DNA of 64,000 nucleotides from Pseudomonas fluorescens (lineage in GTDB: Bacteria; Pseudomonadota; Gammaproteobacteria; Pseudomonadales; Pseudomonadaceae), in NCBI RefSeq assembly GCF_001708445.1, contig NZ_CP015637.1:3845001-3909000 (forward strand). Reading direction: 5' to 3'. Numbering within the stretch: position 1 is the first letter of the stretch; every line of letters starts with the position of its first letter. Positions 3,349-35,035 of this stretch are shown here, one piece after another. A program made the position numbers and the translations under genes. The notes below the pieces were generated by a model. That model saw only the letters and a list, made by a program, of their open reading frames with translations, ran no database searches and was not told the DNA's origin.

Positions 3349-3362
3349 TTGATATGCATCAA
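3349..3362. promoter_or_regulatory. ANR/DNR (FNR-type) box upstream of the HemN-like/hemN operon
   Basis: TTGATATGCATCAA is a perfect TTGAT-N4-ATCAA palindrome. It is centred about 65 bases upstream of the chosen ATG at 3290 and lies in the gap after the stop of the membrane-protein gene. Position and sequence fit activation by ANR or DNR under low oxygen or nitric oxide. DNR and ANR cannot be told apart from sequence. Confidence 0.75.
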
Positions 3363-3380
3363 GGTCGCAGGCCCGTACGT

Positions 3381-3824
3381 CTACCAGCTCAGGTAAAACA
3401 TACTCTTGGCCAGCAGCACGATCGCGACCATGTGCGCGAACAGGCTCAGATGCACCCCGCGGCTATAGCGCGCACTGACGGTGCCCAGGCGCATCCGCGC
3501 CATCGTCACCAGAAAGTGCAGGAGCACACTGGCGGCCAGGATCAGCTTGAGGGTCAGCAATGTGCCAAAGGCAGACGCCAACGGTGCCGACAGCACTGGC
3601 AGGTAACGCAGCCAGACCATGCCGAGCCCGGCACCGAACAGCACCAAGAGCACCCACGGCATCAACACCCGGGCGCGCCGGGCGACACCCTGCTCCACCA
3701 GCACCATCACCCGAATCGGCAGGTGCCGGTGCAGGTGCCCCAGGATCAGCACCTCGAAAAACACCGTGCCGATAAAGATCAGCGCGGCGAACAGGTGGGC
3801 CAATAGCAACAGGAGGTAAAGCAT
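3381..3824 (-). CDS. Small integral membrane protein, CopD-like
   Basis: The 147-residue protein is almost entirely hydrophobic, with about four membrane segments: residues 1-25 (LLLLLAHLFAALIFIGTVFFEV), about 53-73, about 83-110 and about 122-145. Histidines lie in or beside segments (LLAHLFA, LGHLHRHLP, LLHFLV, HLSLFAHMVA), which could bind haem or copper. This resembles CopD/YcnJ-type membrane proteins, but the similarity is general. A perfect ANR/DNR palindrome lies about 64 bases upstream, so it is probably expressed anaerobically with the hemN genes downstream on the same strand. Substrate unknown. Confidence 0.75.
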   Translation of the reverse strand: MLYLLLLLAHLFAALIFIGTVFFEVLILGHLHRHLPIRVMVLVEQGVARRARVLMPWVLLVLFGAGLGMVWLRYLPVLSAPLASAFGTLLTLKLILAASVLLHFLVTMARMRLGTVSARYSRGVHLSLFAHMVAIVLLAKSMFYLSW

Positions 3825-3887
3825 GGAGGCCTCGCAGAGGGACCGGCCGTGGGGAGCCCAGTGTGCGCGAGGGTGAATGACCCGGCC

Positions 3888-3901
3888 TTGATACCGATCA
3901 A
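3888..3901. promoter_or_regulatory. ANR/DNR (FNR-type) box upstream of the CopD-like membrane protein
   Basis: TTGATACCGATCAA is a perfect match to TTGAT-N4-ATCAA, 64 bases upstream of the ATG at 3824. With the second palindrome at 3349 it places two successive leftward units under the same apparent low-oxygen regulator. Confidence 0.75.
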
Positions 3902-29452: not shown

Positions 29453-30011
29453 GTTGTCTTGTAGAGCCCTAATGGAAGATGTGGATTTGGCCTAAACGGA
29501 AAATACTATGACCAACTTGCTCAATCACATCTAGCATTTCTTCCGCTTGGGGGCTTGGCTCCTCTTGGAATATGTTCGCGGGGCCTGAAAGAGTTTCAGC
29601 GACAGTGACGGTCTATTGAAGGTGCTTAACCCGTTGCTGCTTTGTCAGTGGGTTGATTTGAGGTTTTTGCTTGAGGCAGGCGCGCCTATCCTGTGGCGGG
29701 TGGCCCTTGAGGTGTAAGTTTGGCCATGTGGTCTTCACGATTGAACGAATAAAACAGCCTATCCTGCCCACTCCATAACTCTCCCATCATGCTGCGTACT
29801 CTCCCGCTGGCCGATGGGCAGATTTTGTCTCAGACCAATCAGGAGAGCTACTTTTGCAAAAGGACAGTTCAACCTCGGCCTGATGTAAAAAGCAATTCGC
29901 CGAGAGAAGTTTCGTGTGCCTTGATTCCCGAATGTGGATGAAGAAGACTCCATCCATTATCTGATGGTCGAACCAACGACCGAAGTTGTCGAAGTGGGAT
30001 TACGTTTGAGC
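29453..30011. other. Long gap without a recognised gene
   Basis: The roughly 560 bases contain no frame I can defend. Short frames occur near 29790 (50 codons) and on the minus strand at 29759-30096, with no recognisable motif. The upstream end is A+T rich. A frame continuing into the DUF4304-like gene is open from GTG 29934. Confidence 0.4.
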
Positions 30012-30665
30012 ATGGGGCCGACGATGCAGGGAAAAACGTTCGAAATAGTGCGAATAGATCAAATCCACGAAATTGTTTCGCCAACCGTAGAGTCACTTTT
30101 ACAGCCGTTAGGGTTCGAAGTTCAGGGCCCGCTGTCCTGGCTGCGTAGCGTCAATGCTCCCATTCGCCAACTCTTTCGCCTTGAGCAGCGCAAAGGCGGC
30201 GCGCTGGCGCCGTCATGGGCTCTGTCACTGGACTTCGTTCCCCATCTTTCCGGCAATGAAATCAAATGGCACAGGACGTCAAAATCAGCACGACCTGATC
30301 TGACTTTCGATGTGCGAGATCGAGCGTTTGATATCTCATACAGCTACGGACTTGATGTCATAGCAACCAGCGCTCCCAATATCCTCCGGGCTGCCATTCC
30401 AAAAGCTGAATCGTTTTGGAACGAGGCTCGTTCGATAGCCGACCTGCCTGGTGCTTTCGAGCGGGTCAAGCAGCATTTGTCGACGGGTGGCCTGGGTTTC
30501 TACAACTACATACAACATCCTCTTGCATACGCGTTTGTATTGGCCATGAACGGCAAGCCCGACACTGCCGAAGAAGAGTTTCAACGCTATTCACAGCGTC
30601 TTTCAGAGGCGGCTCGAAAAAAACTCCGCAAGCTATTCATTGATGCAGGCGGTCACCTTGGCTAA
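30012..30665 (+). CDS. DUF4304-like protein
   Basis: From ATG 30012 the protein has about 217 residues (the frame is open back to GTG 29934). The middle part (VESLLQPLGFEVQGPLSWLRS, RLEQRKGGALAPSWALSLDFVPHLSGNEIKWHRT) has the look of DUF4304 proteins, a family of unknown function often found in polymorphic-toxin and phage neighbourhoods. The 3' end, from about codon 156, is duplicated 2.2 kb downstream (see the repeat entries). Start and family are both uncertain. Confidence 0.6.
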   Translation: MGPTMQGKTFEIVRIDQIHEIVSPTVESLLQPLGFEVQGPLSWLRSVNAPIRQLFRLEQRKGGALAPSWALSLDFVPHLSGNEIKWHRTSKSARPDLTFDVRDRAFDISYSYGLDVIATSAPNILRAAIPKAESFWNEARSIADLPGAFERVKQHLSTGGLGFYNYIQHPLAYAFVLAMNGKPDTAEEEFQRYSQRLSEAARKKLRKLFIDAGGHLG

Positions 30666-30687
30666 GCGAGTACGACTTTTTCAACAG
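30479..30687 (+). repeat. Direct repeat copy 1 (3' end of DUF4304-like gene)
   Basis: This 209-base segment recurs at 32685-32893 in the same orientation, an exact offset of 2206 bases with three mismatches that I count (C/T, T/A and T/C in the second copy). It covers the last 62 codons of the DUF4304-like gene, its stop and about 22 bases beyond. Together the copies bracket the cyclase gene. Confidence 0.9.
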
Positions 30688-30705
30688 AATCGGCCAAAAG
30701 CAGTC
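30674..30705 (+). repeat. 32-base dispersed repeat (copy at the cyclase)
   Basis: The segment begins GACTTTTTCAACAG and ends GGCCAAAAGCAGTC and is identical at 38257-38288. Its first 14 bases are also present at the end of the second direct-repeat copy near 32880-32893, and its inverted form is found at 38094-38118. It begins inside the direct repeat, so the repeat end and this element may share an origin. Confidence 0.7.
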
Positions 30706-31015
30706 GGTCGAGGAGGATACAGAAAAGCCAGTTGCTCAAGCGTGTCGTTCGCCAGCGTGGACCCGCTTAGGCGCTGCGAGCCTAGCTAAAATATGCCCGC
30801 CGGCCGAAAACTGCGAAAGGTCGACGAACGTGTCTACAACTGTTCGCAGGCCCATTTTTAACAACTCGAGAGTTGAACCGTTAACGGGTTTGAATCTTTC
30901 ATATAAGCCCCCTCTTTAGCGCTTGAGTCGTAAAGATATCGACAGACGCGCCGATACTTCAAAAGGACTCTCGGTCACTGCACACTGTTTTGGCGATGAG
31001 CAAGGAACACAACAC

Positions 31016-32551
31016 ATGTCTATTCGTCAGAACGCACTCAAAGCATCAGACGTGACCCTTTGCGGTATGGTGCTCCTGGCTGGGGTGGCCATTACGTTCT
31101 TGGTGCTGATACTGTTCTTAGGATCAGAGCAGCGTACAGTTAGCGTCGCTTTTCAACTTGAAATCGACGAAAGATTCAGTCGACTGCAGCGACGCTTTAA
31201 TACTCAGGAATTGAAACTGGACGTGGTGAGGCGCTTCTTTGTCAACGCCGACGATGTCACTGAAAAGGAATTTATTGGGTTCGTTACGCCTCTCGTTGGA
31301 GAGGACGAAGCCTATAGCTGGGTACCCCGGATTCTTGAGAAGGATCTCCAGGCGTTTCGCGCTAAAGCGCTTCTCAACGGCACCAGTGACTTTTCATATC
31401 ATGAAATCAATCCCGTCACCGGCGAAAGAGTCCCCCTCACCCGTCGGCCGGAACACTGGATATTGCTCTATTTATTGAAGCGCGATGACGTAACGATCAT
31501 ACCTGGCATGGACGTCATGAGTCGTCCGGGGCGCCAGGCCTTGATGAGCAAGGCACGAGAAACACGTCAAATAGTGGTGTCGGAACCGTTGAAAATGACC
31601 AATGGACAGGCGGGAATTTTCTTTGTCGCACCTGTATTCCAGGGGTCCTCTGAGGTTCCATTGAACGATGATGATTTGCAGGGTTTCGTGGTCTCCACCG
31701 TACGCCTGGCTTCTTTGATGGAACAAGGGATTCCGTTGCCAAGTCTGCAACGACTGAACGTGACGCTTTCATTAATCGACCCGCAGCATCAAGGGGAAAT
31801 CATCTATCAGAGTGAGGTCACCGCTGCCCCTTCAGCGCTTTATGCGCAGCGGCTGCTGAAAGTTGCCGACCAAAATTACTTAGTCCAGTTCAGACCCAGC
31901 TCAACCTTTCTAGTCGCCAACAGCTACACACTGTCTATCAGCCTGTTTTTTGTGTTCGGAATGGGGTTGACGCTGCTATTGACCTTGATGGTGTACTTAC
32001 TGATTACGCAGCGCGCCCGTGCGCTCTCGCTGGTTGATGAGCGCACGCGCGACTTGCATTTATTGAACATTACCGATCACCTGACCGGTGTCTACAACCG
32101 CCGACACTTCGAAGAGTTGATGGAGCGCCTGCTCGTCGAGGCTATCGCGCAACACCGTCCTCTGTCGCTGATCACGTTTGACGTCGATCACTTCAAACAA
32201 ATTAACGACCGCTGGGGCCATCAGTGTGGTGATAACGTTCTGAAGTCGTTATGCACACAAATATGTTCAGCTACGCGCAAAACCGATCTGCTGTGCAGAA
32301 CTGGCGGAGAAGAATTTGCTCTGATTTGCCCGGATACTGAGCTGAACGATACAAGGCTGCTCGCAGAAAAGCTTCGCACCCTGATAAGTACCGTGCCGTT
32401 TGAAGATATTGGACAGGTGACTTGTAGCTTCGGTGTTGCAACATGGATTCCATTAGAATCGTTTGACTCCTTCATTCGGCGGGCCGATACCGCGATGTAC
32501 AGTGCTAAATCAAATGGTAGAGATCAAGTCCAACTTGCAGATATGAATTAG
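31016..32551 (+). CDS. CHASE-domain diguanylate cyclase
   Basis: The 511-residue protein starts at ATG 31016 after CAAGGAAC. It has a first membrane segment (LCGMVLLAGVAITFLVLILFLG), a periplasmic CHASE domain (RFSRLQRRFNTQELKLDVVRRFFV; SWVPRILEKDLQAFRA), a second membrane segment (SYTLSISLFFVFGMGLTLLLTLMVYLL) and a GGDEF domain: DHLTGVYNRRHFEELM, DVDHFKQINDRWGHQCGD and active site GGEEF. An inhibitory I-site (RKTD) lies five residues before it. It should make c-di-GMP in response to a small periplasmic ligand. No phosphodiesterase is nearby. The gene is bracketed by the 209-base direct repeats. Confidence 0.92.
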   Translation: MSIRQNALKASDVTLCGMVLLAGVAITFLVLILFLGSEQRTVSVAFQLEIDERFSRLQRRFNTQELKLDVVRRFFVNADDVTEKEFIGFVTPLVGEDEAYSWVPRILEKDLQAFRAKALLNGTSDFSYHEINPVTGERVPLTRRPEHWILLYLLKRDDVTIIPGMDVMSRPGRQALMSKARETRQIVVSEPLKMTNGQAGIFFVAPVFQGSSEVPLNDDDLQGFVVSTVRLASLMEQGIPLPSLQRLNVTLSLIDPQHQGEIIYQSEVTAAPSALYAQRLLKVADQNYLVQFRPSSTFLVANSYTLSISLFFVFGMGLTLLLTLMVYLLITQRARALSLVDERTRDLHLLNITDHLTGVYNRRHFEELMERLLVEAIAQHRPLSLITFDVDHFKQINDRWGHQCGDNVLKSLCTQICSATRKTDLLCRTGGEEFALICPDTELNDTRLLAEKLRTLISTVPFEDIGQVTCSFGVATWIPLESFDSFIRRADTAMYSAKSNGRDQVQLADMN

Positions 32552-32658: not shown

Positions 32659-32871
32659 GTGTCCGGTTTTATTAGACCACTACCGTCGACGGGTGGCCTG
32701 GGTTTCTACAATTACATACAACATCCTCTTGCATACGCGTTTGTATTGGCCATGAACGGCAAGCCCGACACAGCCGAAGAAGAGTTTCAACGCTATTCAC
32801 AGCGTCCTTCAGAGGCGGCTCGAAAAAAACTCCGCAAGCTATTCATTGATGCAGGCGGTCACCTTGGCTAA
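32659..32871 (+). pseudogene. Truncated 3' fragment of the DUF4304-like gene
   Basis: A frame of 70 codons repeats the last 62 residues of the DUF4304-like protein (GGLGFYNYIQHPLAYAFVLA to AGGHLG) after a short unrelated leader. Three base differences cause one amino acid change (QRL to QRP). It is a gene end produced by segmental duplication; whether it is expressed is unknown. Confidence 0.8.
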
Positions 32872-32893
32872 GCGAGTACGACTTTTTCAACAG
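32685..32893 (+). repeat. Direct repeat copy 2
   Basis: Second copy of the 209-base segment at 30479-30687. It ends in TTTTTCAACAG, after which the two copies diverge (GAATCGG in copy 1, CATCAGC in copy 2). Confidence 0.9.
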
Positions 32894-33060
32894 CATCAGC
32901 GGACATTCGTCTTCAGCATCTCGACGCCAGAATTAAAATGTTTGCCCGAGCCAAGTGCGACTTCCTCAGGAGTCATAAACCTATACCGCGTGACGCGATC
33001 CCTTCGACTATCTACACTGCCGCAGACATCAAAACCTTTGGCGCGACCGGGGCAGCACGC

Positions 33061-33876
33061 ATGGACCTTCAACATCGCAACAACGTAAAAGTAATGGGCG
33101 ATGGTCCTTCAACGCTGATCTTTTCCCATGGTTTCGGCTGCGATCAGTCCATGTGGCGTTATCTCGCCGAAGGTTTCACCGATCGCTTTACAGTTGTGCT
33201 GTATGACCTCGTCGGAGCGGGTGAGTCGGACCTCGAAGCCTATGATCGGGAAAAGTACAACTCACTGGCCGGGTACGCCCGGGACCTGAATGAAATCATC
33301 GACCATTACGCCCGTGGGCCGGTGATCGTTGTCGGCCATTCCGTCAGCAGCATGATCGGTACCCTGGCTGACCGCCAAGCGCCCGGAAGCATTGCTGCCC
33401 ATATAATGATCGGCCCTTCACCCTGCTATATCGACACCGACGACTATGTCGGTGGTTTCAAGCTGGAGGACATCCACTCGCTGCTCGACATACTCGACAG
33501 CAACTACCTTGGCTGGTCCAGCACCATGGCCCCGGTGATCATGGGCACACCAGGGCAACCGGCACTGAGCGAAGAGCTGACGAACAGTTTTTGCCGCACC
33601 GAGCCCGATATCGCCAAGCAATTTGCACGAGTGACGTTCATGTCCGACAACCGCCAGGACATCGTCGGGCTGGCGACACCCACGCTGATCCTGCAATCCA
33701 CCGACGACCTGATCGCCCCCCTCGCCGTGGGTGACTACCTGCACGCTGTGCTGCCCAACAGTACGCTCTGCCTGGTGGCCAACGTCGGCCATTGCCCACA
33801 CATGAGCGCGCCCAGTGCATGCTCCGAAGCTATGGAGAACTTCCTGTCACCCTGGATAGGCGAACATGTCAACTGA
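33061..33876 (+). CDS. RsbQ/KAI2-like alpha/beta hydrolase
   Basis: The 271-residue protein is close in length to B. subtilis RsbQ. It begins HRNNVKVMGDGPSTLIFSHGFGCDQSMWRYLAEGF and carries the nucleophile GHSVSS (Ser94), the acid in QSTDDLIAP (Asp215 or 216) and the base in NVGHCPHMSAP (His244). RsbQ and its plant homologues KAI2 and D14 are small-ligand-binding hydrolases used as receptors or activators. Its stop overlaps the start of a PAS histidine kinase by 11 bases, mirroring the RsbQ-RsbP pairing in Bacillus. The frame is open back to 32938, but ATG 33061 fits the family start. Confidence 0.9.
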   Translation: MDLQHRNNVKVMGDGPSTLIFSHGFGCDQSMWRYLAEGFTDRFTVVLYDLVGAGESDLEAYDREKYNSLAGYARDLNEIIDHYARGPVIVVGHSVSSMIGTLADRQAPGSIAAHIMIGPSPCYIDTDDYVGGFKLEDIHSLLDILDSNYLGWSSTMAPVIMGTPGQPALSEELTNSFCRTEPDIAKQFARVTFMSDNRQDIVGLATPTLILQSTDDLIAPLAVGDYLHAVLPNSTLCLVANVGHCPHMSAPSACSEAMENFLSPWIGEHVN

Positions 33877-35035
33877 CCAGCCGTTGCTACCCGATAATCA
33901 GATGCTGTTCGATGAAGCCCCCTGCGGCTTGGTGGTAACGAAGGAAGACGGCACGATTCTTCGCAGCAACCAGACGTTTAGCCATTCGATCGGCCTGGAC
34001 GCCCAGGCACTCATCGGGCGGCGTTTTCAGGACCTGCTGACCATGGGCGGGCGCATCTTCCATCAAACGCATTGGTCGCCGCTGATGCAGATGCAAGGAT
34101 CCGTCGCCGAAGTAAAACTCGATCTGGTTCACCATGACAAACACATCGTGACCATGTTGCTCAACGGCGTCCGACGCGAGCACGCCAGCGGTGCGTTTTA
34201 TGAGCTGGCGCTCTTTGGCACCAAAGATCGCGACAAGTACGAGCGCGAGTTGCTCAACGCACGAAAAGTCGCCGAAGACCTGCTGCGCGAAAAAACCGCC
34301 GCCGAATCGGCCCTCAGGCAGGCCCAAGCCGAGCTTAAAAGCGCCTACGAAGAAGCACAGCTTCGCGCCTCGTTCGCCGAACAAATGGTGGCCATCGTCA
34401 GTCACGATCTGAAAAATCCGCTGACGGCTATCAAAATGGCCTCTGGCATCCTTGCCCGAGAAGAACGCACCACTCGAGAAAGCAAAATGCTGGGCCACAT
34501 CAGCCAGTCGGTAAACCGTGCCGAACGCATGATTGCCGACCTGCTGGACCTGGCATTGGCCAGGGTTGGGCAAGGCATCACGCTTAGCCCTTCAACCGTG
34601 GATTTGCACGCCTTCGTTGGCGCCAGCGTCGATGAATTACGTATGACATTCCCCGAAGCCACGTTGGTGCATCAGACTGTGGGGACAGGCAACGCCTGTC
34701 TGGATGCGGACCGGGTGCAGCAAATCATTGGCAATCTGGTGGCTAACAGCGTGGCTTATGGTGATTTACAACAGCCGATCACGATCACTTCACGCGTTGA
34801 ACAGGATCACGCCGTTGTATCGGTAAAAAACCAGGGGCCGGTTATTCCCGACTCGTTGATGGACGTTTTGTTTGAGCCAATGATTCGGGGTGCAAAGACC
34901 GGCACCGATTCGCGCAGCGTGGGGCTTGGACTCTTTATCGTTCGAGAGATCGTCAGGGCGCATAACGGTGTCGTATCGGTGAATTCAACGCCAGAGAGTG
35001 GCACCACCTTTACCGCGACATTTCCGATGGTTTGA
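33866..35035 (+). CDS. PAS-domain sensor histidine kinase paired with an RsbQ-like hydrolase
   Basis: The 389-residue soluble protein has an N-terminal PAS domain (FDEAPCGLVVTKEDGTILRSNQTFSHSIGLDAQALIGRRFQDLLT, residues 15-58, then GGRIFHQTHWSPLMQMQG), a coiled-coil linker (130-170), a HisKA H-box VSHDLKNPLTAIKMA with His180, and a HATPase domain with N-box QQIIGNLVANSVAYG and G-box SVGLGLFIVREIV. There are no membrane segments, so the signal is intracellular. No response regulator lies nearby. The 11-base overlap with the hydrolase gene argues that the hydrolase acts on or through this kinase. Confidence 0.92.
   Translation: MSTDQPLLPDNQMLFDEAPCGLVVTKEDGTILRSNQTFSHSIGLDAQALIGRRFQDLLTMGGRIFHQTHWSPLMQMQGSVAEVKLDLVHHDKHIVTMLLNGVRREHASGAFYELALFGTKDRDKYERELLNARKVAEDLLREKTAAESALRQAQAELKSAYEEAQLRASFAEQMVAIVSHDLKNPLTAIKMASGILAREERTTRESKMLGHISQSVNRAERMIADLLDLALARVGQGITLSPSTVDLHAFVGASVDELRMTFPEATLVHQTVGTGNACLDADRVQQIIGNLVANSVAYGDLQQPITITSRVEQDHAVVSVKNQGPVIPDSLMDVLFEPMIRGAKTGTDSRSVGLGLFIVREIVRAHNGVVSVNSTPESGTTFTATFPMV

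Follow-up and report, generated by a model that had tools for sequence, protein, structure and literature searches.

An RsbQ-family hydrolase paired with a soluble PAS histidine kinase in Pseudomonas fluorescens: a further member of the published RsbQ-PAS modules

Introduction

Two overlapping genes of Pseudomonas fluorescens, one for an alpha/beta hydrolase and one for a histidine kinase, raise the question of whether their products form a single signalling system and, if so, whether that system is new. The genes lie in a stretch of 64,000 nucleotides (G000:C1:3845001-3909000 of a 6.64-Mb genome), called the window below, whose first letter is position 1 in all window coordinates. A sequence-only reading of this DNA had described an RsbQ/KAI2-like hydrolase coupled to a PAS histidine kinase and ranked the pair as the best candidate for a poorly described signalling system. 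The latter description does not hold, since Nadezhdin, Brody and Price (2011; PMC3183031, cited throughout for its main text) had already defined a hydrolase-PAS module with phosphatase, diguanylate-cyclase and, in Gram-negative bacteria, histidine-kinase outputs. Its occurrence with histidine kinases and cyclases is restated in the text of a 2025 paper (PMC12143880). The locus is a further member of this published kind, not a new system. We describe the two proteins, the conservation of their pairing, the PAS residues that define the class and a lineage of related kinases that stand apart from any hydrolase.

The hydrolase and the kinase

The upstream gene (33061..33876, forward strand) encodes a 271-residue alpha/beta hydrolase matching Pfam Abhydrolase_1/6; no NCBIfam cut-off was reached. 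Its ORF starts with ATG at 33061, and a longer in-frame start is also present at 32938. The catalytic residues are Ser94 within a GHSVS motif (codon 33340..33342), Asp216 (33706..33708) and His244 (33790..33792), each invariant in the six sequences compared. In structure-chain alignments the triad falls on S95-D217-H246 of KAI2 (numbering from the text of PMC3548789) and the histidine on H247 of RsbQ, and the ORF and these alignments together confirm the Ser/Asp/His triad and the length given in the sequence-only reading.

The hydrolase scored 256 bits against B. subtilis RsbQ (1wom, E 2.6e-75), 242 against Olei00960, 191 against KAI2 (E 2.5e-55) and about 171 against D14, and among the best 60 of 129 matches, solved chains from beyond RsbQ, KAI2, D14 and their set reached at most 42.7 bits. 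A 41-row tree split the hydrolase, RsbQ and KAI2 from six paralogues of its own genome, which form long branches, with an SH-aLRT of 99. The proposed kinship is therefore upheld, with RsbQ closest, KAI2/D14 following and other esterases far away; a clustering with ordinary esterases, named beforehand as the outcome that would speak against it, was not found. The protein shares its family and triad with the plant butenolide receptors KAI2 and D14. Residue 118, however, is Gly, as in RsbQ and the D14-type DAD2, and not Ser as in KAI2 (S119). The plant KAI2/D14 proteins signal through other partners.

The hydrolase stop overlaps the kinase start by exactly 11 bases (33866..33876), as first read, and this overlap recurs in relatives. 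The kinase gene (33866..35035, forward strand, ATG start) encodes 389 residues. An N-terminal RsbP-type PAS domain (about residues 10-119; 33893..34222), identified by Pfam, alignment and the structural model, is followed by a continuous predicted helix (residues 120-197; 34223..34456; DSSP on the model) that leads to the dimerisation domain, by a HisKA domain (residues 172-230; 34379..34555) containing the phospho-acceptor His180 (34403-34405), and by a HATPase_c domain (residues 280-388; 34703..35029). HisKA (53.3 bits) and HATPase_c (81 bits) were both above the Pfam cut-offs; the PAS_4 match was weak (24.3 bits against a cut-off of 23.1). The motif residues H180 and N294 and a GLG box are present.

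The kinase has no membrane segment: its maximum 19-residue Kyte-Doolittle mean is 1.21, against 2.84 in the neighbouring CHASE-GGDEF protein. Pfam found no SpoIIE/PP2C output domain in it and HisKA and HATPase_c instead. Domains and hydropathy thus agree with the earlier view that the output is a soluble PAS histidine kinase rather than a phosphatase.

The model of the kinase (mean pLDDT 87.5, pTM 0.58) gives the order PAS, helix 120-197 and kinase core, with pLDDT of 66-96 by blocks along the helix, and places the F-alpha helix of the PAS domain at residues 60-77. Its top Foldseek match was 4gcz (E 2.0e-22), a PAS/LOV-linked soluble histidine kinase; because identity is 19%, TM-scores are about 0.35 and the rmsd is 25 Å, the likeness is one of domain order only. 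The two also differ in their input, a light-sensing domain in 4gcz and a PAS domain that is, by homology, hydrolase-dependent in the window kinase. The structure alignment took the window kinase and 44 of 50 kinase references.

Conservation of the pair and exchange of its output

We surveyed 398 genomes of one genus, which we take to be Pseudomonas because the hydrolase has its closest named relatives there, with cut-offs of E <=1e-30 for the hydrolase and E <=1e-10 for the PAS domain. The hydrolase was found in 138 genomes, the PAS domain in 134 and both in 124. A PAS gene lay directly downstream on the same strand at 133 of the 149 hydrolase places, or 131 of 147 loci, since the hydrolase is split in two pieces in each of two genomes (G286 and G334). 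Fifteen further loci (L134-L148) have a PAS-diguanylate cyclase downstream, recognised by GGDEF in the translation, with Pfam run on L134 only; one locus has neither partner (L203, a second, solo hydrolase copy in G189). RsbQ of L134-L148 is 41-46% identical and is paired with the PAS-diguanylate cyclase instead of a kinase.

A scan of named genomes confirmed at least 586 relatives. The best 80 of these were kept, which biases the set to close relatives, and in 79 the hydrolase adjoins a PAS protein, L116 being the sole exception. Besides Pseudomonas, these named loci include records from Burkholderiales, Rhodanobacter, Alteromonas, Microvirga and Myxococcota, from a Verrucomicrobiaceae bin (Verrucomicrobiota), from an Actinomycetota bin and from Rhodocytophaga (Bacteroidota). 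The pair is conserved far outside the strain, and the lack of conservation named as a refuting result in the sequence-only reading was not found.

The hydrolase also occurs on plasmids (117 records by DNA search, 74 by protein search), and six of the seven plasmid loci scored for the pair carry it (L041-L044, L191 and L192, but not L045). Across 13 plasmid regions, annotation makes the partner a kinase in L041, L043, L197, L200 and L201 and a kinase with a receiver in L042, L192, L198 and L199. The partner in L202 is labelled 'ATP-binding protein', L044 has a SpoIIE phosphatase and L191 a GGDEF protein; L045 has none. A receiver domain is fused to the PAS protein in 27 of 130 paired loci. The outputs found under the one module are thus kinase, kinase with fused receiver, diguanylate cyclase and PP2C.

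The two genes overlap from start to stop by some length in 76 of the 110 scorable paired loci and by the same 11 bases in 40, a count that favours 11 because, in these 110 of 130 loci with a scorable ATG/GTG, the start nearest an 11-base overlap was chosen. Hydrolase or kinase frames are split at G286:C4:7833-8629, G334:C14:370084-370894, G359:C1:4448071-4448730, L034 and L036; the pair may be decaying in a few genomes, or these may be assembly errors.

An ordinary metabolic esterase could also adjoin a kinase by chance, and the few solo hydrolase copies (L045, L116 and L203) are what such a neighbour might look like. Because the pairing is conserved, here across phyla, and given the frequent overlap and the clear split of the hydrolase from the paralogues of its own genome, we consider this explanation extremely improbable. 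The two halves are nonetheless separable, since these solo hydrolases exist alongside kinases without a hydrolase, found at 11 places and described below.

Class residues of the PAS domain

Nadezhdin et al. (PMC3183031) aligned 24 RsbQ-partnered PAS domains with 24 close homologues without RsbQ, used a PSI-BLAST similarity to RsbP-PAS below 3e-18 as a criterion, found in 36 of 45 proteins that a coiled coil of 21 residues or more joins the PAS domain to the output, and tested nine RsbP residues (C10, L13, L48, Q53, F55, C56, Y59, E72 and P86). Window numbering is that of RsbP plus ten. The RsbP numbers come from the text of that paper and from the Paenibacillus protein of L191, counted by eye, and the shift is anchored because C10, F55, Y59, P62, E72 and P86 of L191 carry the same numbers.

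At the nine positions the window PAS has C20, V23, L58, R63, F65, H66, H69, E82 and T96. It is identical to RsbP at four of them (C, L, F and E) and shares P72 as well; V23 is hydrophobic, and T96 replaces P86. If, as we infer, the 'basic' and 'aromatic' key letters of PMC3183031 belong to these positions, R63 and H69 would agree with them. L48, F55, Y59 and E72 are null positions in RsbP (PMC3183031), and their window counterparts are L, F, H and E. Across the paired domains position 65 is F or Y in 130 of 130, position 69 carries H in 129 and Y in one, and position 82 is E in 128 of 130, with G in L043 and L044. At position 96, 27 of the 29 rows from the genus survey have Thr, and 45 of the 79 named rows have Pro. 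The DIT motif is absent from the end of the PAS domain, where the window reads LFGTKDRDKYERE.

An RsbQ homologue immediately upstream of a PAS protein with a histidine-kinase output places the locus within the module. With the kinase modules of 2011 (PMC3183031) it shares the gene order, the N-terminal RsbP-type PAS, the Gram-negative host, a predicted helical linker without the DIT motif and what appear to be most class residues, whereas Thr stands at the P86 equivalent; Pseudomonas is not named in the main text of that paper, figures excluded. The combination of an RsbQ homologue with an RsbP-type PAS is also that of B. subtilis RsbQ-RsbP, the energy-stress branch of the sigma-B response, which differs in having a PP2C phosphatase as its output where the window has a histidine kinase.

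The PAS domain might instead be an independent haem or gas sensor acting via His66, with the hydrolase as an accessory. His66 sits where Dos and FixL have their haem ligands in a published alignment (PMC3183031), and all 29 paired domains from the genus survey and 52 of the 79 named ones have His at position 66. Against this, every one of the 15 PAS-GGDEF partners from Pseudomonas has Leu there, and some named paired domains have Tyr, Gln, Leu, Trp or Ser. In RsbP the C56A substitution at the equivalent position had a modest effect only, and His is reported there in two of 24 (PMC3183031). We judge a haem sensor very unlikely.

A kinase lineage without the hydrolase

Eleven PAS places (L150-L160) had no adjoining hydrolase: ten lie in genomes without a hydrolase at E <=1e-30, an absence that refers to a survey scoring up to 6 candidates per genome, among the rows listed, and one is a second copy in G265. 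One of them (L154 in G275) is, in addition, missing the beginning of its PAS domain. Position 82 is N in six and D in five of the 11 and never E; position 69 is Y in nine, H in one and N in one. Since RsbP itself has Tyr at the equivalent of position 69, only position 82 departs from both the paired kinases and RsbP.

The ten hydrolase-free kinases long enough for a tree formed one group (99/98), whose nearest rows were the hydrolase-paired L112 and L149 and the unsafe L129 (80/98). Its placement inside the paired kinases hinges on the root, a midpoint on L191, which is a PAS-GGDEF protein and not a kinase; L129 and L043 are very long branches. The tree left out the GGDEF partners L134-L148, the PP2C partner L044, partners longer than 470 residues and the short L034, L036 and L154, and 4 identical rows were also dropped, so that 88 of 92 were kept. 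A second tree without L191, L129, L043 and the PAS columns recovered the group with an SH-aLRT of 93, counted only against 12 non-Pseudomonas rows, and by itself bears on the grouping rather than the nesting. Because the hydrolase-free kinases share one origin, the change at position 82 is one event, not eleven.

Close homologues without RsbQ were already known in 2011, and position 72 of RsbP was then singled out in comparing paired with unpaired PAS domains (PMC3183031). In general literature searches we did not meet a Pseudomonas kinase lineage seemingly derived from paired kinases.

A family of large ORFs lies beside seven of the 11 hydrolase-free kinases (L150 3620-6361, L151, L155-L158 and L160) and beside one paired locus (L086). 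The ORF exceeds 900 residues in six and has 451 in L155, where the locus end cuts it. It had no Pfam match in L150 and L151 and no NCBIfam match in L150; it may be a cyclic-glucan synthase.

Neighbourhood of the pair

Receiver domains, those of hybrid proteins included, were found at 114 places in the genome and at none inside the window. The nearest, at C1:3910297, is about 30 kb past the kinase end, and on the other side the nearest is about 60 kb away, so the sequence-only reading was right that no response regulator is nearby: none lies within 30 kb of the pair in its own genome. When the 130 paired loci were viewed together with about 1.5 to 4 kb of flanking sequence, a minority had receiver domains on other ORFs. 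In a P. putida locus (L076), about 110 bases separate the pair from a stand-alone receiver-domain ORF (3359-3889) on its upstream side, whose cluster is represented at three of the 80 loci, all from Pseudomonas; the ORF is a possible phosphotransfer partner in that genome.

Just upstream of the pair in the window, a 216-base direct repeat (98% identity; 30479-30694 and 32685-32900) flanks the CHASE-GGDEF gene (30923-32551), and an ORF with no Pfam or NCBIfam match (29934-30665) has its 3' end within the first copy; the repeat suggests a duplication or insertion. Neither ARAGORN nor Rfam at its gathering thresholds gave an RNA gene in the window, and a scan for promoters and terminators gave signals not above those of shuffled sequence.

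Two other candidates were set aside. When neighbouring ORFs were clustered in search of a third conserved gene, the largest clusters were the kinase set, which takes in other kinases as well (67 loci), the hydrolase (47 of 81 loci) and an antisense cluster of 30 loci that we took for shadow frames by strand and position alone; the next cluster had 7 loci only. The longest-ORF filter behind these clusters loses many true genes, as the hydrolase itself was recovered in only 47 of the 81 loci. A natural hydrolase-PAS fusion was suspected in Pelagibacterium because the hydrolase match lay under a kinase annotation, but the annotated kinase starts where the hydrolase match ends.

Discussion

The two genes very probably encode an RsbQ-PAS bipartite sensing module with a histidine-kinase output and direct contact between hydrolase and PAS domain. 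In the window this reading draws on both protein families, the gene order, the triad, what appear to be most PAS class residues and one predicted helix from PAS to kinase; the course of signalling is modelled on RsbQ-RsbP. By that homology the hydrolase would bind a small molecule in its Ser-Asp-His pocket and would dock on the F-alpha helix of the PAS domain, where F65 and H69 of the window correspond to F55 and Y59 of RsbP. The PAS domain would then relay the change along the helix and thereby regulate autophosphorylation at His180, and the phosphoryl group would go to a response regulator encoded elsewhere. In B. subtilis, RsbP binds RsbQ through its PAS domain, F55A breaks binding, and E72 is needed for signalling and not for RsbQ binding (PMC3183031); an AlphaFold2 model described in the text of PMC12143880 places two RsbQ between the PAS domains and linkers of an RsbP dimer. 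The hydrolase, which would supply or read a ligand, probably switches on the sensor kinase.

Supplying and reading correspond to two published models that differ at this step only. In Model 1 (PMC3183031) the hydrolase makes a small molecule that the PAS cavity senses; in Model 2 the hydrolase pocket itself senses, and turnover ends the signal. A complete triad, the need for the triad in B. subtilis signalling (PMC3183031), and a Gly at residue 118, shared with RsbQ and DAD2, whose catalytic histidine has a geometry that favours activity, and in contrast to Ser in KAI2 (PMC3548789), are all in keeping with Model 1, whereas as of 2011 RsbP-PAS had been found without any ligand or cofactor (PMC3183031). 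We regard Model 1 as possible, and a receptor-type action as in Model 2 as somewhat more likely, because the same protein family gave rise to the plant receptors KAI2 and D14. That RsbQ perceives butenolides is reported in the title of a paper cited by a review (PMC13192556), which has one related sentence of its own.

A bolder form of the receptor reading would make the pair a bacterial counterpart of the plant butenolide receptors, by which soil pseudomonads would answer a butenolide from plants, smoke or neighbours with a phosphorelay, with one Pseudomonas kinase lineage freed from the hydrolase and carrying Asn or Asp in place of Glu82. We think this unlikely; if it were true, PAS position 82 would be the point at which docking of the hydrolase is coupled to the output.

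The locus itself changes no concept. Its kinship with plant hormone receptors makes it more interesting. As a compact, soluble two-gene example from Pseudomonas, with natural variants in which the output is swapped or the hydrolase is missing, it is a convenient test bed for the RsbQ-PAS module.
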